From NCBI GenBank assembly GCA_023249635.1, contig JAHFCH010000025.1, positions 1-45,212 of the forward strand: 45,212 bases of DNA, written 5' to 3'. The notes beneath the pieces were generated by a model that made no database searches, was not told the DNA's origin, and worked only from the letters and a program-made list of their open reading frames with translations. Positions 290-33,724 of the stretch are shown here, one piece after another. Within the stretch, counting starts at the first letter, position 1; each line of letters opens with the position of its first letter. The position numbers were made by a program, and so were the translations under genes. This DNA is from Fibrobacterota bacterium. Its GTDB lineage: Bacteria > Fibrobacterota > Fibrobacteria > UBA11236.

Positions 290-3200
290 ATGAAAAGCAA
301 TAGCCAAGGCGTGAGTACCGAGTTAACCGGAGGTGCGGGGTTTACCTTCGAAGACGGCTGTTTGGCAATTTATCTATGCGCCTTACTTGGGGAAGGGCCT
401 TGTCGAGGGCTTCCAAATCGGACAGTGGTAAGAGTCGCCTCGCAACGAGCAAGTGCTGGCGAACCAATGGATGACATTATCGTCGAAGCAGAAAGCCCCA
501 ACAGCGAACGTGCCAAATTGAGCCTCCAGGTCAAGAAGGCATTGACGGTTAGCAGCGCGGAATCCAATCAGGATTTCCGTTCGATTATTCTGGGAGCCTA
601 TGCCACGATAACGAAGCCCGAATTCCGGGCGGATATAGATCAAGTAGGGGCAATAACGGGCAGCATAAGGGATGACTCCAAACGCGCAGTCGAAACGGTC
701 TGCACATGGGCAAAAAGCCAGGACACTTCTGATACCTTCCTTGGGAAATTTTCACCCGGTGTGTCAAATAATGAGCATCGAAAATTCCACAACGCAGTTC
801 GAGACATCTTAAGGGACTCTATACCAGCCAACCGTCTGGATACCGAAGTCCATCGCCTCCTCAAGCATTTCGTCTTAATGGAATTCGACCTACTCCATGA
901 TGGAGCAACGGACGAAAGCAATGCCGTTGCGCTTCTGCGCTACTGCCTCAAGCCAATTGATGCAACTCGTTCCGCAGATCTCTGGTCTTGCCTTCGAGTC
1001 ATCGCAAGGGAGGCGGCCGGTCAGGGAGCGGCGTTTAGCCGGCCCAACCTTATCCCGAGGCTGCATGGGTCATTTCGCCTGGTTGGCGCCATTTCACTCC
1101 GGAAAAGTCTGGACCTCTTGTTCCAAGAGGCTCAGTTAGGTTTAAAAGATATTGCCGTCGATGTAATCGGATCCGTCATTCCTCGAACAAAGGTCATCGA
1201 AGAAACCAGGGACAAACTAAAACAGCATAGCTTCGTGCAAATAATCGGAATCCCTGGAGCCGGAAAATCGGCGGTCCTTAGACTTCTGTGCGATGAGTTT
1301 TTCAAGGCTGGCACCGGCTTGTTCTTGAAATCGGATAAACTTTCCTATTCAAGTTGGTCAGCATACGCCATGGCGATCGGTTTGGATGCCGTCTCTCTTG
1401 AGTCCTTGCTTCTTGAAATTACCCTTTGTGGGACCCCAATTCTTGCCATTGATGGCCTCGACAGAATTTCCCCTGAAAGCCGAGGCATAGTCAGAGATAT
1501 CCTGAATACCATTCTTGGAAACCCTGTATTGAAATCAGCTTGGTCCATTGCCGCTACGGTCCGTAGTGGAGGGATCGAGGACATAAGAACTTGGTTGCCA
1601 TCGAATCTTTTCGACGAGTCACAGCCTGCAATGGTTGAAGTCAAAGCATTCGACGATGAAGAGTCAAGGGCCCTAGCCGATGCGCTGCCAGCGCTTCGCG
1701 CGCTACTTTTCAGCGAAAATGAGCGCGTTCGAGAAATTTCCCGGCGCCCGTTTTTTGCGGCGGTAATCGGGAAGTCTTTTGGTAATACGCAGGGTTCCCC
1801 AGTAGAAGCGAATTCGGAAATTCAGTTGATCGATGCTTGGTGGGTGCGTGGTGGGTACAACGCCAACTCGAACCGGATTCTATACCGCACAGAAGCCTTG
1901 CGGCGTCTGGCTGCCTACGGATCCGCAACTTTGGGACGAGGTATTTCGCTTGAAGGGACCATCGATCTCGGCGCGATAACCGAATTAAAAGCCGATGGTA
2001 TCCTTAAGGATGGGGCACCAGGAAGTGTCCGGTTTTCCCACGACATCTTTTTTGAGTGGGCGTATCTTCATGTTTTAATGGGTCGTGAATCTGAATGGCC
2101 CGATGAAATTCGGCGAGTCGGGGAACCACCTGTTCTCGGCCGAGTCGTCGAACTCCTCTCACAAAAGGCATTGGCTTCCTCTCCCGCATCTTGGGGAAAC
2201 AGTCTTACCGCCCTCGAAACTTCGGACCTACGTCCTCAATGGGCCCGCGCATGGCTCCTCGGACCGATTGGCCACTCTGAATTTCTGGATAAGGCTACGC
2301 CTTTCACTGATGCCTTGTTTTATGAGGGTAGTGATAGAGTTCGGCGGTTAGCGGTTTGGTTCCAGGCTGAAAAGACTCGCCCGAACCCTGCAATCCTTGA
2401 TGGCTCAAGTGGAAAAGGACTCTCACTATCAGAGGCAGTGCGCCTCGCTGATCTATATGCTTGGCCCTCAGATATCCGGTCCTGGCAAAGAGGCTGCCAG
2501 TGGTTCATCGACAACATAGGTAGATGTCCTATTGATGTGATCCCTGAAATCGTAGCTGTCTTTGAGGTTTGGCAGAACGCTCTGGCGGATCACCCGAACG
2601 CTATCTCCCGCCAAATTATGGTCCTTGTCCACTCTTGGCTGATCGATATCGAAGACTTGATCCATGCCGAAGATTACCGAAGGTCCGGAGAAGGAAAGTG
2701 GCATACTCTCCCTGAAGGCGGAATGAAGGAATTGGAACAACGCCTTCGGCATCTATTTGTCCGGTCAGTACGAACGCTACCCAACGAGGTTAAGGACTAC
2801 CTTTCCCGAGTTGCCGACAGGCCCCGTTTAAGGAAAGAGTGCTTCAAGGATGTCTTGACTTTTTCTCCCATACTCGCTGAAAAAATTGGACCGGTCCTCG
2901 TGAGCTTTCTGCTAGCCGAATTGAAGCAAGAATTGCCAAATGATGTTGCAAAGCGACCTATGCCAAGGGGAATGTTTAACCAAGGACCATCGATCCACGA
3001 TCGACTAGAGCTTGCTCTAAATCCGAATACTCATGCTTTTTTCCCCGCTTCTCCTCTTTGGCAGCCATTCCCGGCGCTATTTCAATCTTCACCAGAGGAT
3101 GGGCTATACGCGGTTCGTGAGCTGTCCAACCATGCCATCACCGCTTGGCGACAGTTCTGCGCTAACGATTGGGAGCGTCCAAGTACTCCGATCCCATTGG

Positions 3201-5602
3201 TAATGGACTTCCCTTGGGGCCTCCAGAGTTTTTGGGGAAGTCACAAAACTTATACGTGGTTCCGGGGCAACGGTGGACCAGGCGTCCTTGCCTCGGCACT
3301 GATGGCGTTAGAAAAATGGGCATTCTCGGAAATCGAAAAGGGGGTCGACGCGGACGGTCTAATCCGGAAAATACTTACCGGGCATGAGTCTTGCGCCGTT
3401 CTCGGCATCGCTGTTGCCATCGCTCTTCACACCAAAAGGGTGTCCAATACTACATTGCCGTTTATTTCTTCTCAGGCTCTATGGTGGTGGGACATAGCAC
3501 GCATGGGCTATGACCGAACTGCATCGAGTATGCTTCTATCATTCCATGAGACTCAGGATCATATCGCGGCTCTCCGTGAACAAAATTCTTGGGAGGTGCG
3601 AAAATCAGAAATTCGAGACTTGGCGATGCGTTTCGTAATTTGCAATGATGAAACCCTTGCGAAGGCGGCCCAATCCGTCATCCAGGATTTCCCCAAAAAC
3701 ATCCACTTTGCAACGGAAGAAGAAAAGAAAAACAGTGATGATACTGATTCAGTCCTTCGCCAAGCTTTGATCTGGGCGGAATGGGGTAAGCCGGAAAACT
3801 ATACTGCGAGGCGCTTTGAAGGAAACGGCCAAGTTTTAATCGAACTGAACAATCCGACGGCCCAAGACCCAGATGTTGTAGCGTCACGGGAGCGAGTCCA
3901 GACTCTTAACCAGCAACTAGGCCTATCCCTTTGGGCCGACGAAAGTTTCTCCGGCTCTCAGATATCTGCCAGAATGTCTCTGATTCAGGCACTGGAAACC
4001 GCCCACTTGCTTGAAGGTCCAGAGCTTTTCACTCAACCCGTCGGGATGCTGAGCTTCTCTGATCAAGCTGTGGCCGCCGTGGCCGCTGTGGCGATGAAGT
4101 TCTTCTCCTCAATTCCAGAGGCAGAACGGCAATGGGCGGTCGATGTCATTTTTCGCGTGACGGAACTTCCCGAACCAATGGACGAAGAATTTTATTCAAT
4201 GTCGGAAAATCCATACCATGTTGGCCTTCACGCTTTACGGGGCTTGGTATTCATGATACGAGGAAAAATCAGAGTCCTTGAGGCTCAGCAAGCGTTGATC
4301 CGATTAACCGCTCATCCAAGGGAATCCATTTCGAAAAACGCTGTCAGCGCCATCCTCGGTCTCTGGGATGTAGACAAACGCTTTTCGTGGATAGGGCTTA
4401 ATTTGGCTATCAACCTTTCAACCGGGTATTGGAATGGAAACCCGGACGAGTCCGGGCAGAATGATCTAGAGAATAACGCTAAGGCTGTTGAAGCAGCACT
4501 GGCTAAGATGGTATCAGGAGACAATTTCGATTTCAAGTTATCCCGAATACCTCCCGCGTGGGAGTTTGCACAGGCAAGGCCCATTCGGGGGCCGTTCAAC
4601 GAAGAGCAACCAGCCGGAGCACCACATTGGCGTAGTCCTGACACGCATTTTGATCACCGCTACCTATCCTCATTGCTTAGAAGCATTCCATTCAAAGAAA
4701 TCCTTCAAGAGCATTCAATGGCGAGTCAGTTTCTGATATTCTGCAATACCATGACCGAATGGACTGTGGAACGGATTTCACCAACGTGGGACACCCGAGG
4801 TCAAAATCGTAGGGATCGCGAAACAAACATTTTCGAATGGAAGATGGATCTGTCCCGCTTCCTTGGACAAGTTGCCATTCATCTTGAACCCGCCCAAGTA
4901 AGAACCGTTTTCTTGGATGTCATAGCCTCCCTGGATGATGACGATTATTTTGACATGCTCAGTCCATTCCTAGACATGTTGGGGTGTGGCATTATGGATG
5001 ATGCAGTCTTTCCGGAAAATGCGATAGCCATTATGGGAGACTGTCTGCCTAGGATTTTAGCCAGCGACGATTGGTCAATGTTGAGAAGGCGGAGTAGCCG
5101 CCATTTGGATGAAGACCTTTCTAAAATTGTCAGCTCACTTTTCTTCGTCCAGGTTGGCGAAAGCAAAGCACCTAACTCCGCAAGGTTCGCAAATGGTGAC
5201 TGGAGCGAGGTGGGAAAGATCCTTCCACTAGTGGACTCCGTTGTCATGTCGTTCGGAGACATCCCAAGGGTGGCTTCGTTGTTCCTCACGCTCTGTGAAA
5301 GGGCTGGCGCGAACTACCCAATGGAAAAATTTCTTGATCATATGCATGGGCTATTCAAACTGCAATCAAGCACACCAGTAGGCTGGAGGGAAACTTATTT
5401 ACCCAATCGAATCGCATCCTTAATTCAAAACTTTGCTACGCGTACGCAGCCTTTGCCTCTGGAAAAAGCACAATCCATGCTGCGCCTTCTCGATAGGCTA
5501 GTGGACATGGGAGATCGTCGGGCAACCGCACTTCAAACCAGCGAACTCTTCAAGAATACCCGAGCAGATTCAGCCCGAGAATTGACATCTTCAACCTTAT
5601 GA
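290..5602 (+). CDS. STAND NTPase with N-terminal PD-(D/E)XK nuclease domain
   Basis: This is a 1770-residue protein. Residues 15-110 contain an acidic pair in PMDDIIVE (D61/D62) and a LQVKK strand (Q80, K82). That is the D...QxK pattern of Cap4/Mrr-like PD-(D/E)XK nucleases. A P-loop NTPase follows, with Walker A GIPGAGKS (320-327) and Walker B ILAIDGLDRI (384-393), as in STAND regulators. The remaining ~1300 residues look like alpha-helical repeat structure and would be the sensor arm. By family precedent (Avs-like STAND nucleases) the likely role is ligand-triggered oligomerisation and DNA cleavage in antiphage defence. There is no clear Shine-Dalgarno before ATG 290. The 3' end overlaps the convergent gene by 6 bases. 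The domain assignment is good; the ligand is unknown. Confidence 0.8.
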   Translation: MKSNSQGVSTELTGGAGFTFEDGCLAIYLCALLGEGPCRGLPNRTVVRVASQRASAGEPMDDIIVEAESPNSERAKLSLQVKKALTVSSAESNQDFRSIILGAYATITKPEFRADIDQVGAITGSIRDDSKRAVETVCTWAKSQDTSDTFLGKFSPGVSNNEHRKFHNAVRDILRDSIPANRLDTEVHRLLKHFVLMEFDLLHDGATDESNAVALLRYCLKPIDATRSADLWSCLRVIAREAAGQGAAFSRPNLIPRLHGSFRLVGAISLRKSLDLLFQEAQLGLKDIAVDVIGSVIPRTKVIEETRDKLKQHSFVQIIGIPGAGKSAVLRLLCDEFFKAGTGLFLKSDKLSYSSWSAYAMAIGLDAVSLESLLLEITLCGTPILAIDGLDRISPESRGIVRDILNTILGNPVLKSAWSIAATVRSGGIEDIRTWLPSNLFDESQPAMVEVKAFDDEESRALADALPALRALLFSENERVREISRRPFFAAVIGKSFGNTQGSPVEANSEIQLIDAWWVRGGYNANSNRILYRTEALRRLAAYGSATLGRGISLEGTIDLGAITELKADGILKDGAPGSVRFSHDIFFEWAYLHVLMGRESEWPDEIRRVGEPPVLGRVVELLSQKALASSPASWGNSLTALETSDLRPQWARAWLLGPIGHSEFLDKATPFTDALFYEGSDRVRRLAVWFQAEKTRPNPAILDGSSGKGLSLSEAVRLADLYAWPSDIRSWQRGCQWFIDNIGRCPIDVIPEIVAVFEVWQNALADHPNAISRQIMVLVHSWLIDIEDLIHAEDYRRSGEGKWHTLPEGGMKELEQRLRHLFVRSVRTLPNEVKDYLSRVADRPRLRKECFKDVLTFSPILAEKIGPVLVSFLLAELKQELPNDVAKRPMPRGMFNQGPSIHDRLELALNPNTHAFFPASPLWQPFPALFQSSPEDGLYAVRELSNHAITAWRQFCANDWERPSTPIPLVMDFPWGLQSFWGSHKTYTWFRGNGGPGVLASALMALEKWAFSEIEKGVDADGLIRKILTGHESCAVLGIAVAIALHTKRVSNTTLPFISSQALWWWDIARMGYDRTASSMLLSFHETQDHIAALREQNSWEVRKSEIRDLAMRFVICNDETLAKAAQSVIQDFPKNIHFATEEEKKNSDDTDSVLRQALIWAEWGKPENYTARRFEGNGQVLIELNNPTAQDPDVVASRERVQTLNQQLGLSLWADESFSGSQISARMSLIQALETAHLLEGPELFTQPVGMLSFSDQAVAAVAAVAMKFFSSIPEAERQWAVDVIFRVTELPEPMDEEFYSMSENPYHVGLHALRGLVFMIRGKIRVLEAQQALIRLTAHPRESISKNAVSAILGLWDVDKRFSWIGLNLAINLSTGYWNGNPDESGQNDLENNAKAVEAALAKMVSGDNFDFKLSRIPPAWEFAQARPIRGPFNEEQPAGAPHWRSPDTHFDHRYLSSLLRSIPFKEILQEHSMASQFLIFCNTMTEWTVERISPTWDTRGQNRRDRETNIFEWKMDLSRFLGQVAIHLEPAQVRTVFLDVIASLDDDDYFDMLSPFLDMLGCGIMDDAVFPENAIAIMGDCLPRILASDDWSMLRRRSSRHLDEDLSKIVSSLFFVQVGESKAPNSARFANGDWSEVGKILPLVDSVVMSFGDIPRVASLFLTLCERAGANYPMEKFLDHMHGLFKLQSSTPVGWRETYLPNRIASLIQNFATRTQPLPLEKAQSMLRLLDRLVDMGDRRATALQTSELFKNTRADSARELTSSTL

Positions 5603-11082: not shown

Positions 11083-11160
11083 GGCTGCTCTTCTCCTTAT
11101 GGCCAGGATTTAATTTTTCCTGGCCATTTAGACGTGCGGCAGGCCAAAATCGTGAAGCGG

Positions 11161-11562: not shown

Positions 11563-11564
11563 AA

Positions 11565-16828: not shown

Positions 16829-19549
16829 ATGGATTTAACCTGGCTGAAATCGCAAATCGCTGCTTTCCAAAGCGAACGACCGCGGTACGAGGCCTACTCC
16901 GTCTTCCTCGACTCCGTTCTGAGAAAAGCCGCGGTCCAACTTGCCCCCACCGCCACCGTCCAGGTCCGCGTCAAATCCATGCCCTCCTTCGCCGAAAAGT
17001 GCCTGCGAAAGAAGCAAAAGTACGATCAACCCGCATATCAATTGACCGATCTTTGCGGCGCCCGGATAATCGCCTATTCTCAGGAAGAGGTCGAAGCCTT
17101 ATGCGATTTCGTCCGCAAGCAATTCGAAGTGGACGAGAAGAACAGCGAAGACAAGCTGAAAATCCTGCAGGCCAATCAATTCGGCTATCGATCCGTCCAT
17201 TTCGTGGTGCAAACCCGTTCCGGCGGAACCCCCGGACTGGAGGCCGACCCCGGATTGCTCGCATCCATCAACGCCCCGGGCCCGCAGGGGAAGCCCTTCC
17301 TCCGCAAGGCGGAAATCCAAATCCGCACGTACATGCAGCATGTTTGGGCCGACGTGTTCCATGACCGCCTGTACAAAACGGCGATGAAAATACCGTCGGC
17401 TTATCAGCGGCAGGCCAATGCGTTGGCGGCGCAGCTCGAAACCCTGGACGGACTTCTGGACGGACTCATGGCGCGAATGGATGCCTACCATGGCGACTTG
17501 GGCGCATACATGGGCGCGGCGGAAATACAAAACGAGATCGAGATTCAATCAGCCCTACTGAGCGGATTCGCTGAAGAAAAAGACCAGCCTGCCATGGCCT
17601 TGCGCTTGGCCAAGCTCCACAAAATCCAGGGAACCCGGGAGGGCTGGAAAGCGGTCATCGCGACGACCGAGCCGTTCCGAAACGGCAACACGCCGACGCA
17701 TCGGCAATTGGGGCTGGAATGGGGCAATGCTCTGTGCAGATTCCATCCACCCGGAAGCCCGGAATTCCAAAAGGGCCTGGACTGCCTGCTTGCCCTGGCA
17801 AAGCTCGACGCGCCGATCGACCCCAAGGCGGAAAAATCCGAGTCCGTCCTGCGAGCCCGGGCCCTGGACGATTTGGGTTATGCGGCCGCCAGGACACGGC
17901 AAGACGATTTCAGGCTGCGGGCGAAAAAATATTATTCCGTCGCGCATTCCCTGATTCCCGGCAACCCGTATTATTTCTGCCGCTACTTGATAGCCGCCGT
18001 CAAGGAAAGCCGAGGACACAAAGCCCTGGAACCCGTGCAGCCGTGGATCTTCGAGGCCATTCGGATTTGCGAAGATCACGTGGCCGTGGGGGTGGAGCTT
18101 CCGGAAGCCTGTTTCTCGCTGTTCTGGCTGCATTGGTTCTCCAACCCGCCCCGCCTCGACCGGAAACCGGAGGCGCTCGGATACCTGCTTCGCGCCTTGG
18201 GTAATTCGTCCACGGAGCGGTTGCGGGAGGAATGCATTTCAGTGCTTGACCTCGCGGATCAGCTCCGCCATGAGGATCACCTCTGGGTCCCGGAACTGGA
18301 GGAGGCCGCCATGATCCTGCTGATAGCCGGCATAGCGAAGGAAGGCGAAAAGCTCACCTCCGGGTCAGGTCCGGAAAGGGAATTCTTCCACCGTCTTAGT
18401 ACCGAGGTACCTGAAAAATTCCTTGGGGATCCCAAACCTACGGACAAATATCTGATCGTGGCCGGCAACGCATCCATCGGCATGGAACAGAAGGACATCG
18501 GGGAATGGGGGGATATTCTGGCCCCGGCCTTGGAAGGATTGGAAGGTGTGGTTTTCGGGCCCGGCACGAATGCCGGCATGGGCGCGGCCTTGGGCGATGC
18601 CTGGCGAAAGTTGAAGATCAGGGAAGCTGTGAAGAATCAGAGGGATAGGAAAGCAGCAGCCGAACATGCAGAAGGTTTGCGCCTCCTTGCGCTACTCCCC
18701 ACCCTCCTTCCCAGCGATGCGAACAAGGACGAGGCCTATGAATCCCATTCTTTGCCGGCGAGAAGGTCGCAAGCGGCCTTTTCCTTCCGCGAGCCGCTCT
18801 TTACTTGGTTCACTCTTCTCCAGTACGGAGTGCAGCCTTCTCGCGTCCGGCTGCTGGGCGTGGGCGGAGGAAATATTGCCGCCTTCGAATTTCGCTTGGC
18901 TTTGATGCTGGGAGCACGGGTGGGAGTGGTGGCGGCCTGCGGTCGCGCCGCCAAGGATATCCTGGATGAATCGCCTTGGTGGCCTCGGCAAACACCCGAC
19001 GGCCTCGCCGCCCTGGTGAACCTGCCCAAGGACGCCATGTCCGTTATGGCTTTCCTGCATGCCGGCGACGTGAAGGAGGACAAGCGCTTCGAGGCCGCAG
19101 CCCGGATGGCCCACGAAGAATACGTCCGGTCCCAGTCCCAATACGAGGTGAGGCCCGAGCTCCGGCCCTGGGAAACCCTGCCCGCGGATTTCAGGATCTC
19201 CAATTTCCACCAGGCCGCCTTCGCTGCTACCATCCTGAGACGGGGGAGATTCGGTTTGAGGCCGGGAAAGGATTTCACCCCCCTGAACTTTTCCGATCCC
19301 CGCATCCTGTCTCCGGAAACCCTGGAAATGATGGCCGAAATGGAACATGGCCGTTGGAACGTAGAACGCCTGTTGCAGGGATGGAAGTTGGGGAAAACCT
19401 CCGACAAACCGAATCGGGTCAACGCAAACCTAGTGCCCTGGGCGGATTTGGCCGAGGAAGTGAGGGATTGGGATCGAAACGCCATCCGCGGTTTACCGGA
19501 GAAAATGAAAAAAGCCGGTCTGGAAATCTATCCATTGGAGAGAAGCTGA
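16829..19549 (+). CDS. RelA/SpoT - TPR - SLOG - RyR fusion protein
   Basis: ATG 16829 follows GGGAGGT at ideal spacing; an in-frame ATG at 16817 lies within that leader. Residue numbers count from 16817. Residues 45-190 form a RelA/SpoT synthetase domain with QLTDLCGARII (D78), FGYRSVHFVV and AEIQIRT (E166), so the Mg-binding and substrate residues appear intact. There is no HD hydrolase domain. Residues 240-540 are TPR-like helices. Residues 545-750 are a SLOG/LSDAT-type nucleotide-binding domain (VVFGPGTNAGMGAALGDA; LLGVGGGNIAAFEFRLALML). Residues 760-905 are a RyR domain (ARMAHEEY, PWETLP, MAEMEHGRWNVERLLQGW, LVPWADL). I infer alarmone synthesis controlled by a nucleotide ligand. It is the first gene of the plus-strand operon, and its stop overlaps the Nudix start. 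Confidence 0.85.
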   Translation: MDLTWLKSQIAAFQSERPRYEAYSVFLDSVLRKAAVQLAPTATVQVRVKSMPSFAEKCLRKKQKYDQPAYQLTDLCGARIIAYSQEEVEALCDFVRKQFEVDEKNSEDKLKILQANQFGYRSVHFVVQTRSGGTPGLEADPGLLASINAPGPQGKPFLRKAEIQIRTYMQHVWADVFHDRLYKTAMKIPSAYQRQANALAAQLETLDGLLDGLMARMDAYHGDLGAYMGAAEIQNEIEIQSALLSGFAEEKDQPAMALRLAKLHKIQGTREGWKAVIATTEPFRNGNTPTHRQLGLEWGNALCRFHPPGSPEFQKGLDCLLALAKLDAPIDPKAEKSESVLRARALDDLGYAAARTRQDDFRLRAKKYYSVAHSLIPGNPYYFCRYLIAAVKESRGHKALEPVQPWIFEAIRICEDHVAVGVELPEACFSLFWLHWFSNPPRLDRKPEALGYLLRALGNSSTERLREECISVLDLADQLRHEDHLWVPELEEAAMILLIAGIAKEGEKLTSGSGPEREFFHRLSTEVPEKFLGDPKPTDKYLIVAGNASIGMEQKDIGEWGDILAPALEGLEGVVFGPGTNAGMGAALGDAWRKLKIREAVKNQRDRKAAAEHAEGLRLLALLPTLLPSDANKDEAYESHSLPARRSQAAFSFREPLFTWFTLLQYGVQPSRVRLLGVGGGNIAAFEFRLALMLGARVGVVAACGRAAKDILDESPWWPRQTPDGLAALVNLPKDAMSVMAFLHAGDVKEDKRFEAAARMAHEEYVRSQSQYEVRPELRPWETLPADFRISNFHQAAFAATILRRGRFGLRPGKDFTPLNFSDPRILSPETLEMMAEMEHGRWNVERLLQGWKLGKTSDKPNRVNANLVPWADLAEEVRDWDRNAIRGLPEKMKKAGLEIYPLERS

Positions 19550-19983
19550 TGGAAACGGGCGGCGAAATCCGAGATGGAAAATGGCTATATCCCGTGCCCG
19601 TGGTCCGGGCCATCGTGGAAAACGAGGATGGCCACTTTCTTCTCCTCCGGCGCAGGAATACCCGTTATGGCGAAGGGGAGTGGTGCCTGCCCGGGGGAAA
19701 AATCGACTACCTCTCCACTCCCGAAGAAAGCGTGGTGCGCGAAGTGGAAGAGGAATCGGGTCTTCGCTTCGCGGATTTCCGCTTTCTATTCTACCGGAAC
19801 AACCCTCCCCTCTGGGAAGGCGCCATGCAATGCCTCAACCTGTACTTCGCAGGCAAGGGGCAGGGAACGATACGCTTGAATCCGGAATCCTCCGCTTATC
19901 AATGGGTGCGTCCGGAGGAATGGGGAAATTATCCCATTGCCTTCGGGGGAGATGAGGCCGTGGAAACATGGCTCCGGCACTGA
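19549..19983 (+). CDS. Nudix hydrolase
   Basis: This is a 144-residue single-domain protein. The Nudix box runs GGKIDYLSTPEES, then VVREVEEESGL. The REVEEESG metal-binding core is intact, but the first Glu of the classical GX5EX7REUXEEXGU consensus is replaced by Ser (YLS instead of PGE). The fold's early strand LYPVPVVRAIV and late YQWVRPEEW segment are present. The ATG overlaps the stop of the RelA fusion (TGATG), so the two are made together. By context it may degrade or modify the nucleotide made or sensed by the upstream protein; the substrate cannot be read from the sequence. Confidence 0.88.
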   Translation: METGGEIRDGKWLYPVPVVRAIVENEDGHFLLLRRRNTRYGEGEWCLPGGKIDYLSTPEESVVREVEEESGLRFADFRFLFYRNNPPLWEGAMQCLNLYFAGKGQGTIRLNPESSAYQWVRPEEWGNYPIAFGGDEAVETWLRH

Positions 19984-21584: not shown

Positions 21585-22094
21585 ATGCGGAACGCAACGG
21601 AGTCCAAGGAACGGAAATGGGCGGACCTTTACAAGAAGCACGGGCAGATGGTTTACAACGCGAGCCTCAAGGGCACTCAGAGTAAACAGGCAGCCGAAGA
21701 CGTGAGCCAGCAGGTTTTCATGAACGTTTTCAGGCACCTGGAAGGATTCCGGAACCAATGCCAAATGAAAACCTGGGTATATCGGATAACCTTGAACGAG
21801 TGCTACCAGTACCGGGAGCGGAACAGGCGGGAAAACCGGAAGGTCCAAGCCTTCCTGGCCGATCACCCGGAGGGCAAGGACGAGGCAAAAGATTGGGACG
21901 ACAAGATCCTGGTGGGCCGTGTTCTGGATTTGGCCGATACGCAAACGCAGAAAATGTTGGAGATGATGTTTTACAAGGACTTGACCCACGAGCAGACGGC
22001 AGCAAGCTTCGGCGTCTCCAGGGTGACCATCACCAAACGCCTGGAGAAATTCCGCAACTCCACGGTTGCCGTCTTGGGTTCGGGGGAAAAATGA
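21585..22094 (+). CDS. ECF-type RNA polymerase sigma factor (1)
   Basis: This is a 169-residue protein. The sigma-2 domain (about 12-82) has AAEDVSQQVFMNVFRHLEGF and TWVYRITLNECYQY. The sigma-4 domain (about 110-160) has LTHEQTAASFGVSRVTITKR. Sigma-3 is absent, as in ECF factors. GGGAGGGAGA directly precedes ATG 21585. The stop overlaps a 24-codon ORF (ATGA), which in turn overlaps the winged-helix gene, so downstream products are coupled and could include its regulator. No classical zinc anti-sigma factor is adjacent, so control may come from the small coupled proteins. Confidence 0.9.
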   Translation: MRNATESKERKWADLYKKHGQMVYNASLKGTQSKQAAEDVSQQVFMNVFRHLEGFRNQCQMKTWVYRITLNECYQYRERNRRENRKVQAFLADHPEGKDEAKDWDDKILVGRVLDLADTQTQKMLEMMFYKDLTHEQTAASFGVSRVTITKRLEKFRNSTVAVLGSGEK

Positions 22095-22165
22095 AGGCGG
22101 TATTCGATTGGCCGAATTGCACAATGTCGGTCAACGTCGATGGCTTGGGGAAATGCAAGGAATGA
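22091..22165 (+). CDS. 24-codon ORF coupled to sigma factor and winged-helix genes
   Basis: The ORF reads MKAVFDWPNCTMSVNVDGLGKCKE, with ATG 22091 overlapping the sigma stop (ATGA) and its TGA overlapping ATG 22162 of the next gene (ATGA again). A G-rich leader (GGGGGAAAA) precedes it. Two overlaps in a row are unlikely by chance in non-coding sequence. It may be a functional micropeptide with two cysteines, or only a translational relay. No known family. Confidence 0.5.
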   Translation: MKAVFDWPNCTMSVNVDGLGKCKE

Positions 22166-22618: not shown

Positions 22619-24514
22619 ATGACCCCTCGATCCCAATCCGATCTCGATCAAGCTTTGAAAGCGCTCGCCGCCAAGAGCATCCAAGCTGATGTTCCGCACC
22701 TCCTGGAGTCCATCCGAAGGCAATTCGCCAATCCGCTCGAATACGTTCGGGAGCTGATTGCCAACGGCTTGGATGCCGGCGCTACCGCGATCCGGGTGCG
22801 TGGGCGCTGGCTGGAGGGGAAAAAATTTCCCCTGCAGATCCTATTCGAGGACGATGGCAAGGGTATGGGCCGCGCGGAGATCGAGCGCTATTTGACGGTG
22901 TTCGAGTCCTTCAAGGACGGGGATGGGTCTACCGTGGGCCGCCACGGCGTCGGGAAGCTATCGCCTTGGGCGGACTCCACGCTCGGCAGTTATATGGTGG
23001 ATACTTGCGATGGAAAGGAGCGCACCATCCTCCACCTGGACTCTGTGCGCCAGGGTAACATGCGGGTTTACCAAGCGCGGGGCGGGCCCGCGGGGACCAC
23101 GGTGACCCTGGAATGGCCGGCGAGGGAGGCGCAGGAGTTGGATCGTCGCATGGAGGGCGTGATCCGGGTGGCGGAAGAATATTGCCGCTATGCTTCGCGG
23201 CCAATCCATTGCGAATATCGGGATAGCGTCATGGAACGGCTGGAAAAAGTCCAGATCGTCCACGCGCCTGAAAACGATGGCTGGATCGCGCTGGAGTCGG
23301 TGGATCTTCCCGGGGGAATCTGCAAGCTTTGGTATCGCTTGGATGGTGGTGGAGGCGGCTTTCACTTTTATCAAGGCGGCATCCGTCTGTGCCTGGACCC
23401 CACCCTCTTCGATACCATGGGATGGAATGATCCCTGGAGTCCGTCGGGCTTGCAGTTTCTCGCCGACAGCCAGGCCTTCGAGGTGCCCATCAGCCGCAAT
23501 GCCGTCAAGCGCAATGAAGCCTATTATCTCCTGGGAAGCCATTTGCGCGAGAAGGTAATGCCGGCGCTTGTGGAGGCCGCATGTCGGCGCCTGGAGCGAA
23601 AGGAATCGGGAGTCTTTGGGGATCAAGATGAAAGCCTGGTGATCGCTTACCTGTGCCAGGATTTCTTTTTCCGTCCCGCAAAGGAGATCCCTTTGTTTCC
23701 CGTGCTTCCTTTCGGCAAGGCCAGTGTCGGAAAATTGACCGCATGGAGGCGGCTGGGACCGCTCCGCGTTTTCCAGGTCCAGGTTGGACCCCTGGATTCC
23801 CCGCCCCAGGCGGCGGCGGACATGCTGGACGCGGCGCGCCTTACCTCGGTAATGAGGAAAATGCTGGAAACTCATTTAGGACCTTTGCAGGACGTTGACT
23901 TCGATAAAGACGTGATGGAGCTTCCCACCAGATCATCTGGGTCGGGGTTGAGTCGCCTGGAGTTACGCTTTCAGAAATGCCTCGTCCTACATCGGACCGA
24001 TCAACCCTTGCTTCCGGAGACCGACGAGGAGAGTCAGACACTCGGTTCCCACATTATCGAATACGCGCTGCGGCGCTTTGGGAAGTTGATTCGCGGCGAA
24101 GACCAGCAAATCGGCGGCGCGGCGGAAATCCCTTCCATACGTTTCCGCCTTGGACGATTGGTGAAGATGGATGGCCGTACTCCCGCGACCAGTCGCAAGT
24201 TCTTGTCGCAGGGGAAAGAGGTGGTCCTGAATTTGAACCATCCGGATCTGGAACGTCATTTGCGATTCGCAGCCAAAGATCCCCTACTGGCGGGGCATTG
24301 GTGCCTGCGGGAGTTTTTGCTTTCGGGAGAGGTAGAGCAGTTCCGGTATTTGAGCCAGGAGGTGCGCGAGGCATTGATTCAGCAAGACGCCGCGGCCCGT
24401 TGCTTGGGGGAGCAGGGTTCGCACACGGAGAAAGTGCCCCGGATACAATGCTTCCGCTGGAGCGACGACGAGGATGATTGGCGCCAATATGATAAAGGAG
24501 ACCGGTATGAATAG
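22619..24514 (+). CDS. HSP90-like GHKL ATPase (1)
   Basis: This is a 631-residue protein with AAGGAG seven bases before ATG 22619. Residues 25-200 form a Bergerat-fold ATPase: N-box YVRELIANGLDAGA (E45, N49), G1 EDDGKGM (77-83) and G2 GRHGVGKLS (107-115). A second alpha/beta domain typical of GHKL proteins follows (SRNAVKRN loop, about residues 295-302). The C-terminal ~300 residues are unassigned. This resembles HSP90/HtpG and MutL-type machines. It overlaps the next GHKL gene by 8 bp, suggesting a heteromeric pair. Inferred role: chaperone-like effector or switch of the system. Confidence 0.8.
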   Translation: MTPRSQSDLDQALKALAAKSIQADVPHLLESIRRQFANPLEYVRELIANGLDAGATAIRVRGRWLEGKKFPLQILFEDDGKGMGRAEIERYLTVFESFKDGDGSTVGRHGVGKLSPWADSTLGSYMVDTCDGKERTILHLDSVRQGNMRVYQARGGPAGTTVTLEWPAREAQELDRRMEGVIRVAEEYCRYASRPIHCEYRDSVMERLEKVQIVHAPENDGWIALESVDLPGGICKLWYRLDGGGGGFHFYQGGIRLCLDPTLFDTMGWNDPWSPSGLQFLADSQAFEVPISRNAVKRNEAYYLLGSHLREKVMPALVEAACRRLERKESGVFGDQDESLVIAYLCQDFFFRPAKEIPLFPVLPFGKASVGKLTAWRRLGPLRVFQVQVGPLDSPPQAAADMLDAARLTSVMRKMLETHLGPLQDVDFDKDVMELPTRSSGSGLSRLELRFQKCLVLHRTDQPLLPETDEESQTLGSHIIEYALRRFGKLIRGEDQQIGGAAEIPSIRFRLGRLVKMDGRTPATSRKFLSQGKEVVLNLNHPDLERHLRFAAKDPLLAGHWCLREFLLSGEVEQFRYLSQEVREALIQQDAAARCLGEQGSHTEKVPRIQCFRWSDDEDDWRQYDKGDRYE

Positions 24515-26399
24515 GCGGGATGGCCACGGGGAAGAAGGCGCGGACAAACCTCTGTTCGAAAGAAGCGGCGGGATGTATACCGTTGATGCGGTCAAAGGTT
24601 ACCGGAAGCTGGCTAGCCGGATGTTTGCCAACGACGTGGGTCGTGCTTTCGAAGAGCTCGTTTCCAATGCCGTCGATGCCTATCCCCCGGATCTGGATCG
24701 GGAGAAAGTGCGCGTGGAGCTGGCCTTCGGAGAGAAATGCGCCTCTGTCACCGATTGGGGCGAGGGCATGAGCCTGGAGCGGGTGCGCTGTTTGCTTACC
24801 CTCGGCGGCACGGACAAGGGTTTTTCCGGGGATCGCATCGGCCGGTTCGGCGTGGGATTCTTCAGCCTATTCGACCCCGACTTGCAGACGGCAAAAGTTC
24901 GCGTCACCACCCGCTGCGAGGACCGACAGGCGGAAATCACCTTCACCGTTGGGGATCCGGCGGTCCCGCCGGCCATCGAGGCTCGAGCCCTGGACGAACC
25001 CTTGCCCTATGCGACGCGTATCGAGGTGACGTTCCGATCGGCGCGTTCCCCCGATGTTTGCAAACGTTGGATCGAGGGGAAGGCCGGCTTCTATCCCTAT
25101 GACATAACGATCAACAATCGCAAGCCGCTTTCCATCTGGAAGCGAGGCAAGCATACCCGCCTTTTCGACACAGGGTACATCAAAGGACGGATCTATTCCG
25201 CCGTTAAGACCGAGGTCCGGATCCTGTGCAGATACAATTACCTGCGCACGCTTATCCCTGACCAGATCGCCGACGAATGCGAAAGCGAGGGCGGGATCGA
25301 TTTCCTCGAGATGCCCAAGCTTCCCGAACTTTGCGTGGATCTCAACTGCAACCACCTGAATGTCATCCTGTCTCGGAATTCCTTCCCTTGGGACGCGGCG
25401 GCCTGTCGCATGGCCAAGGAACTTTCTTCCCTGCTGCGGGGCTGCCTGCTGCGCCGCTTGTCCGAGGAAAACCCGAGACTCCAGGTGAGGCATAGCCTGG
25501 TTTATGCGAATCAATATGTTTTCCGGCGCCGTCTGGGCCGGCTCGCCCGTGACATCCGCGGCGGCCGGTACGTTTCCGATGCCGCCAGCGTGGAATGCCG
25601 TTTGTTTGAAGAACGGCTGTTCACCCTGGAGGGGAAGCGCGGCTTGTTCTCCCTCATGGATATGTGCAAGCTAAAAACCTCGGGTCTCCCGCTTTTCTAT
25701 TGCGCGGAAATGCATTCGGTGAACTGGCTTAACCGCAGGTATCGGCATGATTTCGTCCTGGTCCTGTCCAAGTACCGGCCGCAAGGCATGCCTTCGGACT
25801 ACGTGGCCAAAGTCTTCCAGGCGGTATTCGGCGGATTCCAGGTTGACCTGGACCTAATCGGCCGCAATCCGGAATGGATCCGGAAGCTCGTCGAGGATGG
25901 AATCATAAAAGCCGAAGATCTTGCCAGCGATCTGCGTCTCAATTCCCGTCCACCTTCGGATCCGGAGGAACAACGGCTCCTGGAAGAACTTTCGGCTTGG
26001 TTACGGCGCGAGTCGGTGGCCCGGGTCCTGAGGTCTAATTTCCAATTTAGGGTGCAGGATGTCGACCTGGGACTGTTCGAAGCGAAAGGGCGCGATGCGA
26101 ATGTGTTGGCGGCCTTCTTCGATCACGAGGACAAGCTGCTGGTTCGTCCGCCTAAGGAAATCGACGCGGAGGCCCGTCTGAAAATCGGTCTCAACGCGGG
26201 TAACCCCCTATTCCAATCCCTGAAGTGGTCCCGGGAGTCCAACCGCGCGTACTACATGCTGGGTCTCATCGTGCATGAGTTGACCATGACCCAGCGGCTG
26301 GTGCCCCATTCGTGCAAGTTCTATTACGTCAAGCACAACGTGGAAACCGAGCTGATGGTCGCGCTGCAGGCCGAGTTGATGGGGGAGGCGGCTTCTTAG
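24507..26399 (+). CDS. HSP90-like GHKL ATPase (2)
   Basis: This is a 630-residue protein from ATG 24507, six bases after AAGGAG; an in-frame ATG at 24474 has no such site. The ATPase motifs are N-box FEELVSNAVDAY (E50, N54), G1 DWGEGM (83-88) and G2 GRFGVGFFS (112-120), as in HtpG-like proteins. The middle domain has LDRNSF-like CNHLNVILSRNSFPWD. The C-terminus is unassigned. It is only distantly related to its operon partner but shares the architecture. Convergent with ECF sigma 2, with 4 bp overlap of the stops. Confidence 0.8.
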   Translation: MNRRDGHGEEGADKPLFERSGGMYTVDAVKGYRKLASRMFANDVGRAFEELVSNAVDAYPPDLDREKVRVELAFGEKCASVTDWGEGMSLERVRCLLTLGGTDKGFSGDRIGRFGVGFFSLFDPDLQTAKVRVTTRCEDRQAEITFTVGDPAVPPAIEARALDEPLPYATRIEVTFRSARSPDVCKRWIEGKAGFYPYDITINNRKPLSIWKRGKHTRLFDTGYIKGRIYSAVKTEVRILCRYNYLRTLIPDQIADECESEGGIDFLEMPKLPELCVDLNCNHLNVILSRNSFPWDAAACRMAKELSSLLRGCLLRRLSEENPRLQVRHSLVYANQYVFRRRLGRLARDIRGGRYVSDAASVECRLFEERLFTLEGKRGLFSLMDMCKLKTSGLPLFYCAEMHSVNWLNRRYRHDFVLVLSKYRPQGMPSDYVAKVFQAVFGGFQVDLDLIGRNPEWIRKLVEDGIIKAEDLASDLRLNSRPPSDPEEQRLLEELSAWLRRESVARVLRSNFQFRVQDVDLGLFEAKGRDANVLAAFFDHEDKLLVRPPKEIDAEARLKIGLNAGNPLFQSLKWSRESNRAYYMLGLIVHELTMTQRLVPHSCKFYYVKHNVETELMVALQAELMGEAAS

Positions 26400-29513: not shown

Positions 29514-30898
29514 TCTGAAGGCCGAGGGATATTCGCCTTCGGCGTATCCTCATGCAAGGGATCCGGCAGGATGGCGACCTTGCCGTGATGGGTGCCCAAA
29601 CCGCGGGACAGGTATTTGGAACGCCTGTATAGGAATTTGCTGAAGAGCTCCCGGCTGGGGCTTCTGAGGGGCAATTGCCTTTTATCCAGAACCTTAAGCG
29701 TGTCCTTATCCAGCACGTACATCCGATTCAATCCCCGGTGGCAGGCATAGATGATTCTTTCTACGGGGTCGGGGGCCAGGGTGAAAAAACCGCCGCGCGT
29801 GCCCGCTTCCGTGGCGATGAAGGAAGCCAGGTAATGTTGATGGATGTCCATCTGCGGGCGGTCGAACCCCTTCATGCCGGTCCCATGGGAGATTTGCCAG
29901 GAACGGTAATCGGCGAGGAAATAGAGCCAACGTTTCCAAAAAGGCGGCAGCTCGATCCGGGTTTGTTTTTCGATGGCGCCTGTATGCAGATTGATTTTCA
30001 TTACGCTGCCGGGTACGCCGTACGCGCCATAGAAATACGGGTAGTCGACGAAAGTATCGACGGGGGCGTGGTTGGCGATAAACAACGCGTAATGGAAAGT
30101 CTTGATGTTCAGCGGCTTGGATTCGCCCAGGGTGTATAGGGAAAGGACATTGTCCTGGATTTTGAAGGCATTTCCAAAGGACATGAAATTGAAAGAGGGG
30201 CGCGCAATCGTCAACCTGCCGAGGGGATCGATGTATTCGCAATGATGTCCGCTGCGATACCCGTCGCCCGCCTGGTAAAGCAATTCAACGGTATCGATAC
30301 CCGTTTTCTTGAACACGAAAATGCATTTGGCCAAGGCATCATCGACAATGATGTAGTCGCCTTTGGTGGTGACTTGGTGCAGGTATTTCGGGGGTTCCGG
30401 CTTGAGCCGTTTTTCGGATGTTCCATTCCATTCATTGGGGCCGAAGTAGGAGAAATTATGGAGAACCTTCATTTCTCCCGTCAGCAGGTTCACTTTGATC
30501 AGGCGCAGGTTGAAATGGGTTACGATGTGATTTCCGTCGCCGGGTGTGTCGTTATCCCCCCAGAAGTCGAAGAAATCGGTGGTGGATTCCGGACCTCCGC
30601 TGGTCATACCCAGATTGCTGAAATTGTTGATGATGCGGGGATTTTCCAGATCATATCCGGAATGATCGGCTTTAAGGGGAAAGACGTAAATCTGCGCGGT
30701 GTTCGAACAGGATAATACCAGGTGCCGTTTATTCGGCGACTGCTTCACGAAGTGGGGCGAGCCTCCCATGCCGTAAGGGAATTCGTGATAGTAAGGCTTT
30801 TCGCCATTCCCATTGAGAGGGATTTGCAGGATCCCCCCCGATCCTCCCAGGGTATTGAGCATGCCGCCGTCGCAGGCAACGTACAAATACTTACGCAT
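29510..30898 (-). CDS. Beta-propeller-like protein, uncharacterised
   Basis: This is a 462-residue protein from ATG 30898, with AAGGGA seven bases upstream. It begins MRKYLYVACDGGMLNTLGG and contains repeated beta-strand blocks of propeller type: KRHLVLSCSNTAQIYVFPL, YIIVDDALAKCIFVFKKTG, IIYACHRGLNRMYVLDKDT. There is no signal peptide, so it is probably cytoplasmic. It has His/Asp-rich loops (HHCEYIDPLG) that could bind a ligand or metal. Fused by ATGA overlap to the sigma-54 activator gene, it is best read as that activator's sensor or regulator. Enzymatic activity cannot be excluded. Confidence 0.7.
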   Translation of the reverse strand: MRKYLYVACDGGMLNTLGGSGGILQIPLNGNGEKPYYHEFPYGMGGSPHFVKQSPNKRHLVLSCSNTAQIYVFPLKADHSGYDLENPRIINNFSNLGMTSGGPESTTDFFDFWGDNDTPGDGNHIVTHFNLRLIKVNLLTGEMKVLHNFSYFGPNEWNGTSEKRLKPEPPKYLHQVTTKGDYIIVDDALAKCIFVFKKTGIDTVELLYQAGDGYRSGHHCEYIDPLGRLTIARPSFNFMSFGNAFKIQDNVLSLYTLGESKPLNIKTFHYALFIANHAPVDTFVDYPYFYGAYGVPGSVMKINLHTGAIEKQTRIELPPFWKRWLYFLADYRSWQISHGTGMKGFDRPQMDIHQHYLASFIATEAGTRGGFFTLAPDPVERIIYACHRGLNRMYVLDKDTLKVLDKRQLPLRSPSRELFSKFLYRRSKYLSRGLGTHHGKVAILPDPLHEDTPKANIPRPSE

Positions 30899-30985
30899 CG
30901 CTGTCCCTTGATAGGAATCCGGCTGCAAATAATAGTAATCGATTCATCCCGTATTATATTTGGAGTCCAACCCCGGAGGTTTGTC
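30899..30985. promoter_or_regulatory. Divergent promoter region
   Basis: This 87-bp gap between the propeller operon (minus) and the AAA+-RyR gene (plus) contains an AT-rich core (30926-30960). A perfect TATAAT lies on the minus strand at 30953-30958 and TATTAT on the plus strand at 30952-30957. Neither has an obvious -35 partner, so activator or alternative-sigma control is possible. Confidence 0.35.
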
Positions 30986-33724
30986 ATGGCGGAGATCACA
31001 GGTAAATCCGACGCCAGAGTCCTGATAACCGGAGACGTTCTCAAGGAGACCCGCATCTTTCAAGGCGAGAGGGTATCACCATTCTCGACGGCTCGTCTGG
31101 GAACGACTTTGCGCCAAGGGTTTGGAAACTCCTCTTATCTGCATGAGCTTGTGCAGGGGATCTGCGATGATTTCACCAGCCTTAAGAGTGGCCTCGAAGC
31201 TTCGCCAAAGTCCGGGGAACCAACCGCTTCCATACCTTGGCCCCGCATTTCCTTGGCTTATGGCTTGAAGCAGGAGAGCTTCGGCAACCTTCCCCAGCAT
31301 TTGCACAGCATGGAATATTGGAAGCCTTTCCCCGCCTCCGGCACGGACAAACGTATCTGGCGCATGGAAAAATCCCCCGGATACGGCACCCAATTGGCTG
31401 AGGGACCATGGGAATTGCCTATCTCGGCGGCGGCTCGGGAGGATTGCGATCTCTTGGTCGTGGATGATGTGGGGCTCGCATTCCGGAACCATCTGCAGAA
31501 AGCCGCCTGGCCGCCTTTCCTTTCTTCGACGCAGTCCAAGCCGCCCCGCTGGATCCTTTGCAAAACCTCGCTCCCGCTCGCAGGCAACGAATTCCTGCGC
31601 GCCCTGAACAGGCATGCCGACCGTTTGGTCCTGCTCCTGGATGCGGAAGACATCCGCAAGGCGGAAGTGCGCATCACCCGTGCCGTGTCCTGGGAGCGCA
31701 CCGCTCTCGATCTAATCAAGGAGTTGCGGGAAAATCCGATCCTGGGTCCCTTGCTGCAGTGCCGGCACCTTTTCATCAAGATAGGGCTGGAGGGAGTCCT
31801 GCACGTAGAACCGAAGCCTTCCGGAAAACCGAGATGCACCTTGTATTTCGATCCGGATCGGTTGGAAGGGGACTTCCAAGACGAGCATACCGGTATCGTA
31901 TTCGGGGCCACTACTTCTTTGGCTTCGTCCCTTTTGCTTCTGCTTGTGCGTCATGCCCAAGCGGCGCCCATCCCCCCGGACCTGGATACGTCCGTCAAGG
32001 ATGCCTTAACCGGAGGTCTGTGCTCGGCCCGCCATGCTCTGGCGCATGGACGGGGCAGCGTGGATTGGGATCAAGCGCCGGCGTTGGACCTATCCGGAAT
32101 GAGCCGGGAAATCACCCTGCGAGCCGGAATCATTCCCGCTGACCAGGCGCGTAAGAGGGGTTGGGAACCGGAGCAAGCCCTTACCTTGGGGACGGCGGCC
32201 ATCCCCTGGGAACAAGATGCATACCGCGTGGAGACCTGGACCATCCTGGCCGCCAATCACGGGGATCCGGAAGCGCACAATATCCCTATGCACGGCGTGG
32301 CCGCCCGGGTAGCGGTGCAAGGCCCCGCCGCACTGCTCGACGTGCCCAGGCTCGCCTTCCGGAAGCTGCTCACCGTTGATCGATCGGAAATCGAAAACCT
32401 GCGCAATGTCAAGTCCCTGATGAAAGTTTACCGGAACGTCCCGAACTCCAGCCCACCCCTCAACCTCGGCGTCTTCGGTGCGCCCGGCTCGGGCAAATCC
32501 TTCGCGGTGCAGCAGATCGCGTTGGCCGTATTCGGCGATGGCGTGCCGTTCCTGGAGTACAATCTGTCGCAATTGGAATCGTCCGGGGATTTGGATGGGG
32601 CGTTCCAGCAAATACGGGATCAGGCGATCTACGGCAGGACTCCGGTGGTTTTCTGGGACGAATTCGATGCGGGATATTACAAGTGGTTGCAATATTTCCT
32701 GGCTCCGATGCAAGACGGCACCTTCCAGGTAGGTCAGGCCACCCACCTGATCGGCAAGTGCATTTTCGTCTTCGCGGGAGGCGTCAGCGACAGCTTCAAG
32801 ACCTTCGGCCCAACCCGGATCCAATTCGATGAAGGCGAAGCGGGAGAGCGGGACTTCGCACGGGCGGAAAAGGAATTCCGGGACAAAAAGGGACCGGATT
32901 TCGCCAGCCGGCTTTCCGGCTATATGGACGTGCTCGGTCCGAACCCCAAAAATGATTTGGACACATGCTTCCCCATCCGCCGCGCCATCCTGTTGCGCCG
33001 GTTGTTGGGGTTCGGCGACCGCCAACTGGTGGAAATGGACCGGGGCCTTCTCAGCGCTTTGCTGCGGGTGGGCAAGTACAAGCATGGCAACCGCTCCCTG
33101 GCCAAGATCGCGGACATGCTCAAGAACCATGGATCGCAAGGCAGGCTCCTGCGTTCCGACCTGCCGCCCCCGGACGTCATCTCCCTGCATGCCGACCTCA
33201 AGGAAATCGAGACCCTGGCCTCGCGCGATAACGAATTCCGGAAGCAGGCCGCAGCCCTGGCGCCCGTTGTGCATGAAAGCTACCGGGCCCAGTGCAAGCA
33301 GGACGGCAATACCATGGATTTCGACATGGATTTCGACCAATTGCCCGAGCATGTCAAGGCCGACAACGTCGATGCCGCTGCACGCATCCCTTGGCTGCTC
33401 AGCCTGGCCGGCCTCATGCTGGGTCCGGCCAATACTCCCGACGTCCTGTCCCGGCCCCAACTCGAAGAAATCCTGCTCAAGCGGATCGAGCTTCTGGCGG
33501 AAGCGGAACACGATGGTTGGATGGAGTCCCGCCGACGGAATGGATGGGTTTACGGCGAGAAGAGGGACAATGAGAAGCGCATCCATCCCTTGATGATCAA
33601 TTACCGCTTTCTCCCCGAGTCGGAGAAAAAGAAGGACAGGGATAACGTGATGAATATTCCAGGGGTCGTGGGTAAGGCGAAGTTCGCGGTGGCTTGGGAG
33701 AAGAGCCATAACCGGGCGGTTTAG
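30986..33724 (+). CDS. Ribokinase-like - AAA+ - RyR protein
   Basis: This is a 912-residue protein. ATG 30986 follows GGAGGT at five bases, which excludes the longer upstream frame that overlaps the propeller gene. Residues 1-330 resemble a PfkB/ribokinase fold (VLITGDVLKETRIFQGERV at the start; ITRAVSWERTALDLIKEL; FIKIGLEGVL), although the catalytic GxGD is replaced around HTGIVFGATT. The AAA+ domain has Walker A GAPGSGKS (498-505) and Walker B VVFWDEFD (554-561). The C-terminus (about 765-905) is a RyR domain (VVHESYRAQ, AEAEHDGWMESRRRNGW). It shares the RyR domain with the RelA fusion, so both may recognise the same ligand. Divergent from the propeller/activator operon. Confidence 0.8.
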   Translation: MAEITGKSDARVLITGDVLKETRIFQGERVSPFSTARLGTTLRQGFGNSSYLHELVQGICDDFTSLKSGLEASPKSGEPTASIPWPRISLAYGLKQESFGNLPQHLHSMEYWKPFPASGTDKRIWRMEKSPGYGTQLAEGPWELPISAAAREDCDLLVVDDVGLAFRNHLQKAAWPPFLSSTQSKPPRWILCKTSLPLAGNEFLRALNRHADRLVLLLDAEDIRKAEVRITRAVSWERTALDLIKELRENPILGPLLQCRHLFIKIGLEGVLHVEPKPSGKPRCTLYFDPDRLEGDFQDEHTGIVFGATTSLASSLLLLLVRHAQAAPIPPDLDTSVKDALTGGLCSARHALAHGRGSVDWDQAPALDLSGMSREITLRAGIIPADQARKRGWEPEQALTLGTAAIPWEQDAYRVETWTILAANHGDPEAHNIPMHGVAARVAVQGPAALLDVPRLAFRKLLTVDRSEIENLRNVKSLMKVYRNVPNSSPPLNLGVFGAPGSGKSFAVQQIALAVFGDGVPFLEYNLSQLESSGDLDGAFQQIRDQAIYGRTPVVFWDEFDAGYYKWLQYFLAPMQDGTFQVGQATHLIGKCIFVFAGGVSDSFKTFGPTRIQFDEGEAGERDFARAEKEFRDKKGPDFASRLSGYMDVLGPNPKNDLDTCFPIRRAILLRRLLGFGDRQLVEMDRGLLSALLRVGKYKHGNRSLAKIADMLKNHGSQGRLLRSDLPPPDVISLHADLKEIETLASRDNEFRKQAAALAPVVHESYRAQCKQDGNTMDFDMDFDQLPEHVKADNVDAAARIPWLLSLAGLMLGPANTPDVLSRPQLEEILLKRIELLAEAEHDGWMESRRRNGWVYGEKRDNEKRIHPLMINYRFLPESEKKKDRDNVMNIPGVVGKAKFAVAWEKSHNRAV

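Follow-up and report, generated by a model that had tools for sequence, protein, structure and literature searches.

Introduction

RelA/SpoT synthetases act as regulated growth-arrest or antiphage effectors in CapRel(SJ46) and in the toxSAS toxins FaRel2 and FaRel, and the synthetase described here resembles them in this domain and shares their donor-site and catalytic residues. Whereas CapRel is switched by a phage protein via a pseudo-zinc-finger domain, the partner domains in the present protein are SLOG and RyR, both of nucleotide-binding types. RelQ/SAS1 (YjbM) provides the best fold and sequence match to the synthetase domain itself, although that enzyme is short, free-standing, and devoid of sensor domains. 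Thoeris, which combines a TIR protein (ThsB) with a SLOG protein (ThsA), is comparable in that a SLOG domain is here proposed as the receptor for a TIR-made nucleotide and that TIR domains lie near many loci of the family; it differs in that the effector here is an alarmone synthetase, the SLOG domain is of TRPM type, and RyR is added. TRPM2, with its SLOG domain (MHR1/2) and NUDT9H, likewise associates a TRPM-type SLOG with a Nudix domain, but the present system is without a channel, has a synthetase as its effector, and encodes a separate, MutT-like Nudix enzyme in a neighbouring gene. Finally, the phage protein RyDEP and the R12 repeats of ryanodine receptors share the RyR fold and, at identical spacing, an H/W/D site, whereas here RyR is joined to a host synthetase, its first repeat is degenerate, and N865 stands where RyDEP has H100.

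The window analysed here is a 45,212-nucleotide stretch of DNA from a Fibrobacterota bacterium. It encodes a Rel-TPR-SLOG-RyR chain that we interpret, at a probability of roughly 0.5, as an effector of a prokaryotic immune (conflict) system, namely an alarmone synthetase gated by a nucleotide. No description of such a chain was found in the literature searched, outside of which lay Burroughs 2015 and Burroughs & Aravind 2020; a passage of PMC7824862 (2021) credits Burroughs et al. in this context and, going by that credit, the architecture may already have been noted by Burroughs et al. in 2015.

Domain architecture

The reading frame on the forward strand at 16829-19549 is uninterrupted and encodes 906 amino acids plus a stop. 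An in-frame ATG at 16817 offers a second possible start, which would give 910 amino acids; because a first-pass annotation, made from the DNA alone, numbered residues from that Met, its catalytic D78 and E166 are D74 and E162 here. The features of the chain and of the gene behind it are as follows.

16829..19549, + strand: Rel-TPR-SLOG-RyR protein, coding sequence
16946..17512, + strand: synthetase-only RelA/SpoT domain, residues 40-228
17513..18400, + strand: alpha-helical TPR-like solenoid, residues 229-524
18440..19033, + strand: TRPM-type SLOG (LSDAT) domain, putatively nucleotide-binding, residues 538-735
19082..19264, + strand: degenerate first RyR repeat, residues ~752-812 (H762..Y765..W781..N792)
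19313..19534, + strand: canonical RyR repeat, residues 829-902
19549..19983, + strand: Nudix hydrolase

The chain therefore comprises a synthetase-only RelA/SpoT domain, TPR-like helices, a TRPM-type SLOG domain, and a C-terminal tandem RyR module, in an order that the first-pass annotation had reported and that is confirmed here by the open frame, by Pfam, and by 69 near-full-length homologous chains. Since the same single-chain order was seen again in about 69 independent loci, the architecture is not due to chance. The structure prediction that the annotation had named as a check yielded a full-length AlphaFold2 model (mean pLDDT 88.6), which together with Foldseek supports the Rel, SLOG, and RyR folds; matches to Rel and RyR dominated the Foldseek search with the whole model, and the SLOG segment was therefore modelled separately. 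The annotation's further proposal, that one chain makes one nucleotide while sensing another, emerges as the best-supported hypothesis, given that the SLOG domain is of the type that binds ADPR in TRPM2 and that phage RyR domains bind or cleave 2'/3'cADPR (PMC13232231).

The synthetase domain

In the window copy, Pfam RelA_SpoT matches residues 47-185 (E=7.8e-17), and Pfam scans of this copy and of the family revealed no HD hydrolase domain in the chain. The key residues are R47, K49, S53, K57, R60, D74, R79, Y120, E162, and Q164, so that the catalytic Asp and Glu, the donor-site R/K/S residues, and the G-loop Tyr by which a SAS is recognized are all present. Residue counts were taken over 56 aligned members from about 20 phyla, among which D74, E162, K49, G77, Q164, T167, and K183 are invariant (56/56), while R47 (55), S53 (54), K57 (55), and Y120 (55) are near-invariant, as is H171, and R60 is kept in 51. 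The donor-site and catalytic residues of FaRel2 listed in PMC11782079 have their equivalents among these positions.

The synthetase part of the model matches B. subtilis SAS1/RelQ (5ded, E=8e-7, Foldseek), and by sequence the domain is likewise nearer to RelQ-type 2be3 (E=3.5e-21) than to CapRel 7ztb (9.5e-8) or FaRel2 (~7e-4). Sequence comparison thus did not place it with CapRel/FaRel2 rather than RelQ/RelP, as would be expected of a toxSAS, and toxicity is therefore not implied by the sequence. The idea that Nudix or HD neighbours serve as a check on a toxSAS-like toxicity is suggestive only.

The helical middle and the SLOG domain

Behind the synthetase, where TPRs had been predicted, the AlphaFold2 model forms a helical-repeat solenoid that begins at about residue 190 and lies mostly at pLDDT 84-97. 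Pfam TPR families match up to 18/56 relatives and find no match in the window copy.

The SLOG domain matches weakly in Pfam (E=0.008, residues 676-715), where the window copy, at 15.9-19.8 bits, falls short of the curated LSDAT_prok cut-off of 25.4. Among the aligned members, LSDAT_prok is matched by 46/56 proteins at E<=0.01 and by 54/56 at E<=1 when the segment is scanned alone, the best relative reaching E=2.1e-11 in the segment scan. The model of the isolated segment (pLDDT 89) has a Rossmannoid fold like that of TRPM MHR1/2, and its best PDB match is human TRPM2 MHR1/2 with dADPR (8e6v, E=1e-6, Foldseek), followed by a long series of TRPM channels. MHR1/2 is an ADPR site in TRPM2 (PMC13143021). 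G546, G579, and G583 are invariant among the 56 aligned members and E687 is present in 55/56, whereas a loop position that is Gly in 55/56 is occupied by P578 in the window copy.

The RyR module

The last ~150 residues consist of two RyR repeats. The first, recognized by profiles of the SLOG segment and the tail that match RyR repeats, is degenerate, with H762, W781, and Q795 near-invariant in the family. The second passes the Pfam cut-off (PF02026, E=3e-9, residues 831-900; 37.4 bits against a gathering score of 27.4), in agreement with the RyR domain previously assigned to this end of the chain. Its profile matches include PDB RyR R12, bacterial RyR, and RyR3-nucleotide complexes, and in Foldseek the tail of the model matches RyR3 R12 complexed with adenine nucleotides and with dantrolene-type drugs; ADP and AMP-PCP are bound by RyR3 R12 in PDB entries.

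RyDEP residues H75/W78/H100/D117 correspond to H840/W843/N865/D882 with no gap in spacing, and H840 (55/56), W843 (51/56), and D882 (55/56) are retained across the aligned members. The position of H100, a phosphate ligand in RyDEP, is variable (Ser in 29, His in 13, and Asn in 11 of 56); the window copy has Asn and hence keeps three of the four residues of the RyDEP cADPR site. RyDEP and 6/8 further homologues bind 2'/3'cADPR, and none of those eight cleaves it despite high conservation (PMC13232231). Conservation of the RyDEP site and the behaviour of these homologues make ligand binding by the RyR domain plausible and cleavage less so.

Family and distribution

A scan of the contigs of the genome collection with the single protein found no relative. 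A full-length paralogue lies on another contig of the same genome (33% identity from end to end), with an overlapping Nudix gene of its own, and a third copy occurs in a Chitinispirillaceae genome of the same phylum. A profile of these three sequences retrieved 238 relatives from the genome collection; 80 of the loci were kept, and 69 near-full-length chains (>=750 aa, the window protein and its paralogue included) were read in single ORFs. Among the 56 aligned members, Pfam recognizes RelA_SpoT in 56, RyR in 55, and LSDAT_prok in 46 at E<=0.01.

The family spans about 20 phyla among the rows that were placed. Its bacterial sources include Planctomycetota, Verrucomicrobiota, Lentisphaerota, Bacteroidota, Chloroflexota, Nitrospirota, Actinomycetota, Acidobacteriota, Myxococcota, Thermodesulfobacteriota, and Clostridia, and members were also found in methanogenic archaea and Lokiarchaeota. 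Only two of the 80 kept loci come from named isolates (Oligosphaera ethanolica and Fundidesulfovibrio agrisoli), the rest being almost entirely uncultured. Phyla are intermixed in the family tree, and within the window's own phylum the family is present in 2/168 genomes and 0/5 congeners, which marks the synthetase gene as accessory. No family member was detected in a scan of viral contigs, and tblastn against plasmids and phages matched the Rel domain alone.

A whole-genome search found only two RelA_SpoT domains in the host, both from this synthetase family. That the host might be without a housekeeping RSH was considered and set aside: each of the five congeners has a long RSH, and the 95%-complete MAG therefore probably misses the contig in question.

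Nudix partners and the neighbourhood of the family loci

The Nudix gene (Pfam NUDIX 8.5e-18) had been described as lying directly behind the synthetase, and its ATG does overlap the synthetase stop codon (TGATG). The encoded protein resembles MutT-type enzymes and keeps the REXXEE core of the Nudix box (GKIDYLSTPEESVVREVEEESGL), with Ser replacing the first Glu of the box. By strict coordinates, 36/82 loci have a Nudix gene next to the synthetase on the same strand; about five more have one whose start was called too early or whose gene is split, raising the figure to ~41/82, or about half of the family loci, while only five Nudix genes occur elsewhere in these 82 loci. The Nudix gene is downstream of the synthetase in some loci and upstream in others, and the neighbours comprise more than one sequence type, which suggests repeated recruitment. 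In two loci (L086 and L107), an HD_4 hydrolase lies beside the synthetase.

Of the 82 loci, 26 have another RyR protein (TrkA_N-RyR, AAA-RyR, or stand-alone RyR) and 24 a TIR domain within 10 kb of the synthetase. In 30 genomes, 32 of 122 TIR domains fall within 12 kb of the synthetase against 0.6 expected, but these genomes were picked partly for rich neighbourhoods and the 82-locus counts are the fairer figures. Recurrent neighbours also include STAND-type proteins with DUF4062, NACHT, WD40, or TIR-NB-ARC parts, as well as SLATT-type proteins. The clustering of TIR and RyR could reflect defence islands in general and not one pathway.

The setting of the window copy

Further features of the window are listed below.

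290..5602, + strand: Avs4-like STAND protein, 1770 aa
19990..21378, + strand: 462-aa protein of no known family, 6 bp behind the Nudix gene
22619..26399, + strand: GHKL/HSP90-like ATPase pair (22619-24514 and 24474-26399)
30722..33724, + strand: AAA ATPase-RyR protein, the second RyR protein of the window

The STAND protein matches NCBIfam Avs4 over part of its length (E=1.6e-22), far below the curated cut-off, and its N-terminus matches the DUF626-type of PADLOC. The AAA-RyR protein (RyR 1.1e-13) has no NCBIfam or PADLOC match. In 11 family loci, relatives of it are encoded no more than 8 kb from the synthetase gene, which gives it the appearance of a second effector responding to the same signal. 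These two genes, together with a DUF4062-NACHT-TPR protein and conjugation/recombination genes also encoded here, give the window the look of a mobile defence island. The synthetase and the Nudix protein match the PADLOC phage-defence candidates PDC-S33 and PDC-S07. A whole-genome TIR search and a scan of the window proteins located the TIRs of this genome on other contigs and none in the 45-kb window, and the partnership of a TIR ThsB with a ThsA effector that defines Thoeris is accordingly not seen on this contig. The window contains no Rfam elements, and promoter/terminator signals were not above chance.

The 462-aa protein has no match in Pfam, NCBIfam, or PADLOC and no homologue in the family loci; it is a probable operon partner, in an association that is not conserved. 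It shares a region with the protein encoded at 22066-22512 (phmmer E=4e-12), and neither matches Pfam. The GHKL/HSP90-like ATPases are possible members of the system: a homologous pair accompanies the same system at 3312-7077 of a KSB1 locus (L031), and in both places the pair is found with a sigma-54 activator and an AAA-RyR protein.

Proposed function and alternative explanations

We suggest that the chain is probably a nucleotide-triggered growth-arrest switch in antiviral defence. In the proposed sequence of events, nearby infection sensors (TIR proteins, STAND NTPases) would make an ADP-ribose-class nucleotide (ADPR, a cADPR isomer, or a relative), probably TIR-made, which would be bound by SLOG and/or RyR. 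The change upon binding would be relayed via the helical arm, releasing the Rel domain; with ATP as donor, this domain would pyrophosphorylate a purine nucleotide or the end of a tRNA, with (p)ppGpp, (p)ppApp, and pyrophosphorylated tRNA as candidate products, and growth would stop. Accidental or lasting arrest would be prevented by the Nudix enzyme (in a few loci by an HD hydrolase), which would clear the activating signal or else what the Rel domain makes. The AAA-RyR and TrkA-RyR proteins encoded nearby would be further responders to the activating signal. In an extreme form of this scheme, the bound ADPR-class nucleotide might itself be the pyrophosphate acceptor.

This immune-effector reading is favoured by the intact catalytic and donor residues, the TRPM2-like SLOG fold, and the spacing of the RyDEP H75/W78/D117 equivalents; by the Nudix adjacency, the clustering with RyR and TIR, and the SLATT, NACHT, and TIR-NB-ARC neighbours; and by the patchy spread, the phylum-mixing tree, the PADLOC matches, and the Avs4-like gene in the window. 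Counted against it are the lack of a TIR gene in the window, P578, N865, the RelQ kinship, the MutT-type Nudix enzyme, and possible clustering of islands in general. With no TIR in 45 kb and with P578 and N865, the window copy may have a trigger that differs from that of the TIR-linked copies. The fuller claim, in which an ADP-ribose-class signal read by TRPM2 and RyR domain types turns on an alarmone synthetase, Nudix is the reset enzyme, and the whole is a widespread unnamed prokaryotic immune effector, we put a little short of even odds.

Some of the same observations would suit a metabolic (p)ppGpp synthetase, tuned by NAD+/ADP-ribose or adenine nucleotides so that the stringent response would follow redox or energy state, with Nudix removing (p)ppGpp: the Rel domain is closest to RelQ, RyR3 R12 binds ADP/AMP-PCP, and the Nudix enzyme is MutT-like. 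We consider this unlikely; against it stand the presence of the family in just 2/168 genomes of the phylum, its absence from all five congeners, every one of which already has a long RSH, and the TIR, STAND, SLATT, and other RyR proteins among the neighbours.

Doubtful to a greater degree is the possibility that SLOG and/or RyR are catalytic, with RyR cleaving a cADPR-type signal, an activity that RyDEP has, or SLOG a nucleotide, so that the chain would be a brake or converter that makes an alarmone while destroying the ADPR signal. The conserved RyDEP catalytic dyad (H840, D882) and the near-universal SLOG E687 would fit such activity, but the eight further RyDEP homologues did not cleave, six of them binding (PMC13232231), and the H100 position is Ser or Asn in 40/56. 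The least probable alternative makes the synthetase product itself the messenger, read as feedback by the SLOG/RyR part in cis and by AAA-RyR/TrkA-RyR in trans, with the TIR genes as unrelated island neighbours; RyR proteins do cluster around the synthetase gene, and Nudix and HD neighbours fit degradation of a Rel product, but experiments tie RyR and the TRPM2 SLOG to ADPR-class or adenine nucleotides, not to ppGpp.

If the immune-effector reading is true, NAD+/ADP-ribose immune signals and alarmones, which are usually treated apart, would be joined in one chain, which would link NAD+-derived immune signalling directly to arrest of the (p)ppGpp type. The family would also make the ligands of bacterial RyR domains testable, and the co-occurrence of TRPM-type SLOG and RyR repeats in prokaryotes would bear on how two animal calcium channels came by their ligand pockets.

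Related and split arrangements

The nearest Rel-only proteins (~370 aa) retrieved from relatives in the same taxonomic class (L005-L026) have a small HD_4-like gene close by in 18/20 loci, forming a split synthetase/hydrolase pair, which indicates that a paired hydrolase is common for such synthetases. In a Methanomicrobiales archaeon (L094), two genes take the place of the single chain, one for Rel (9980-10909) and one bearing RyR (10951-12483), as though effector and sensor could exist apart.

TrkA_N is an NAD-binding regulator domain of ion channels, and TrkA_N-RyR proteins of ~600 aa recur beside the synthetase (L039:4674-6470, L042:13104-14951, and L086:16828-18672, among others). Short RyR genes also lie near the synthetase in host genomes (L081:7097-7537 and L069:10001-10411), of which the former encodes a stand-alone RyR protein of 147 aa (E=3.4e-32) with a make-up similar to that of phage RyDEP.
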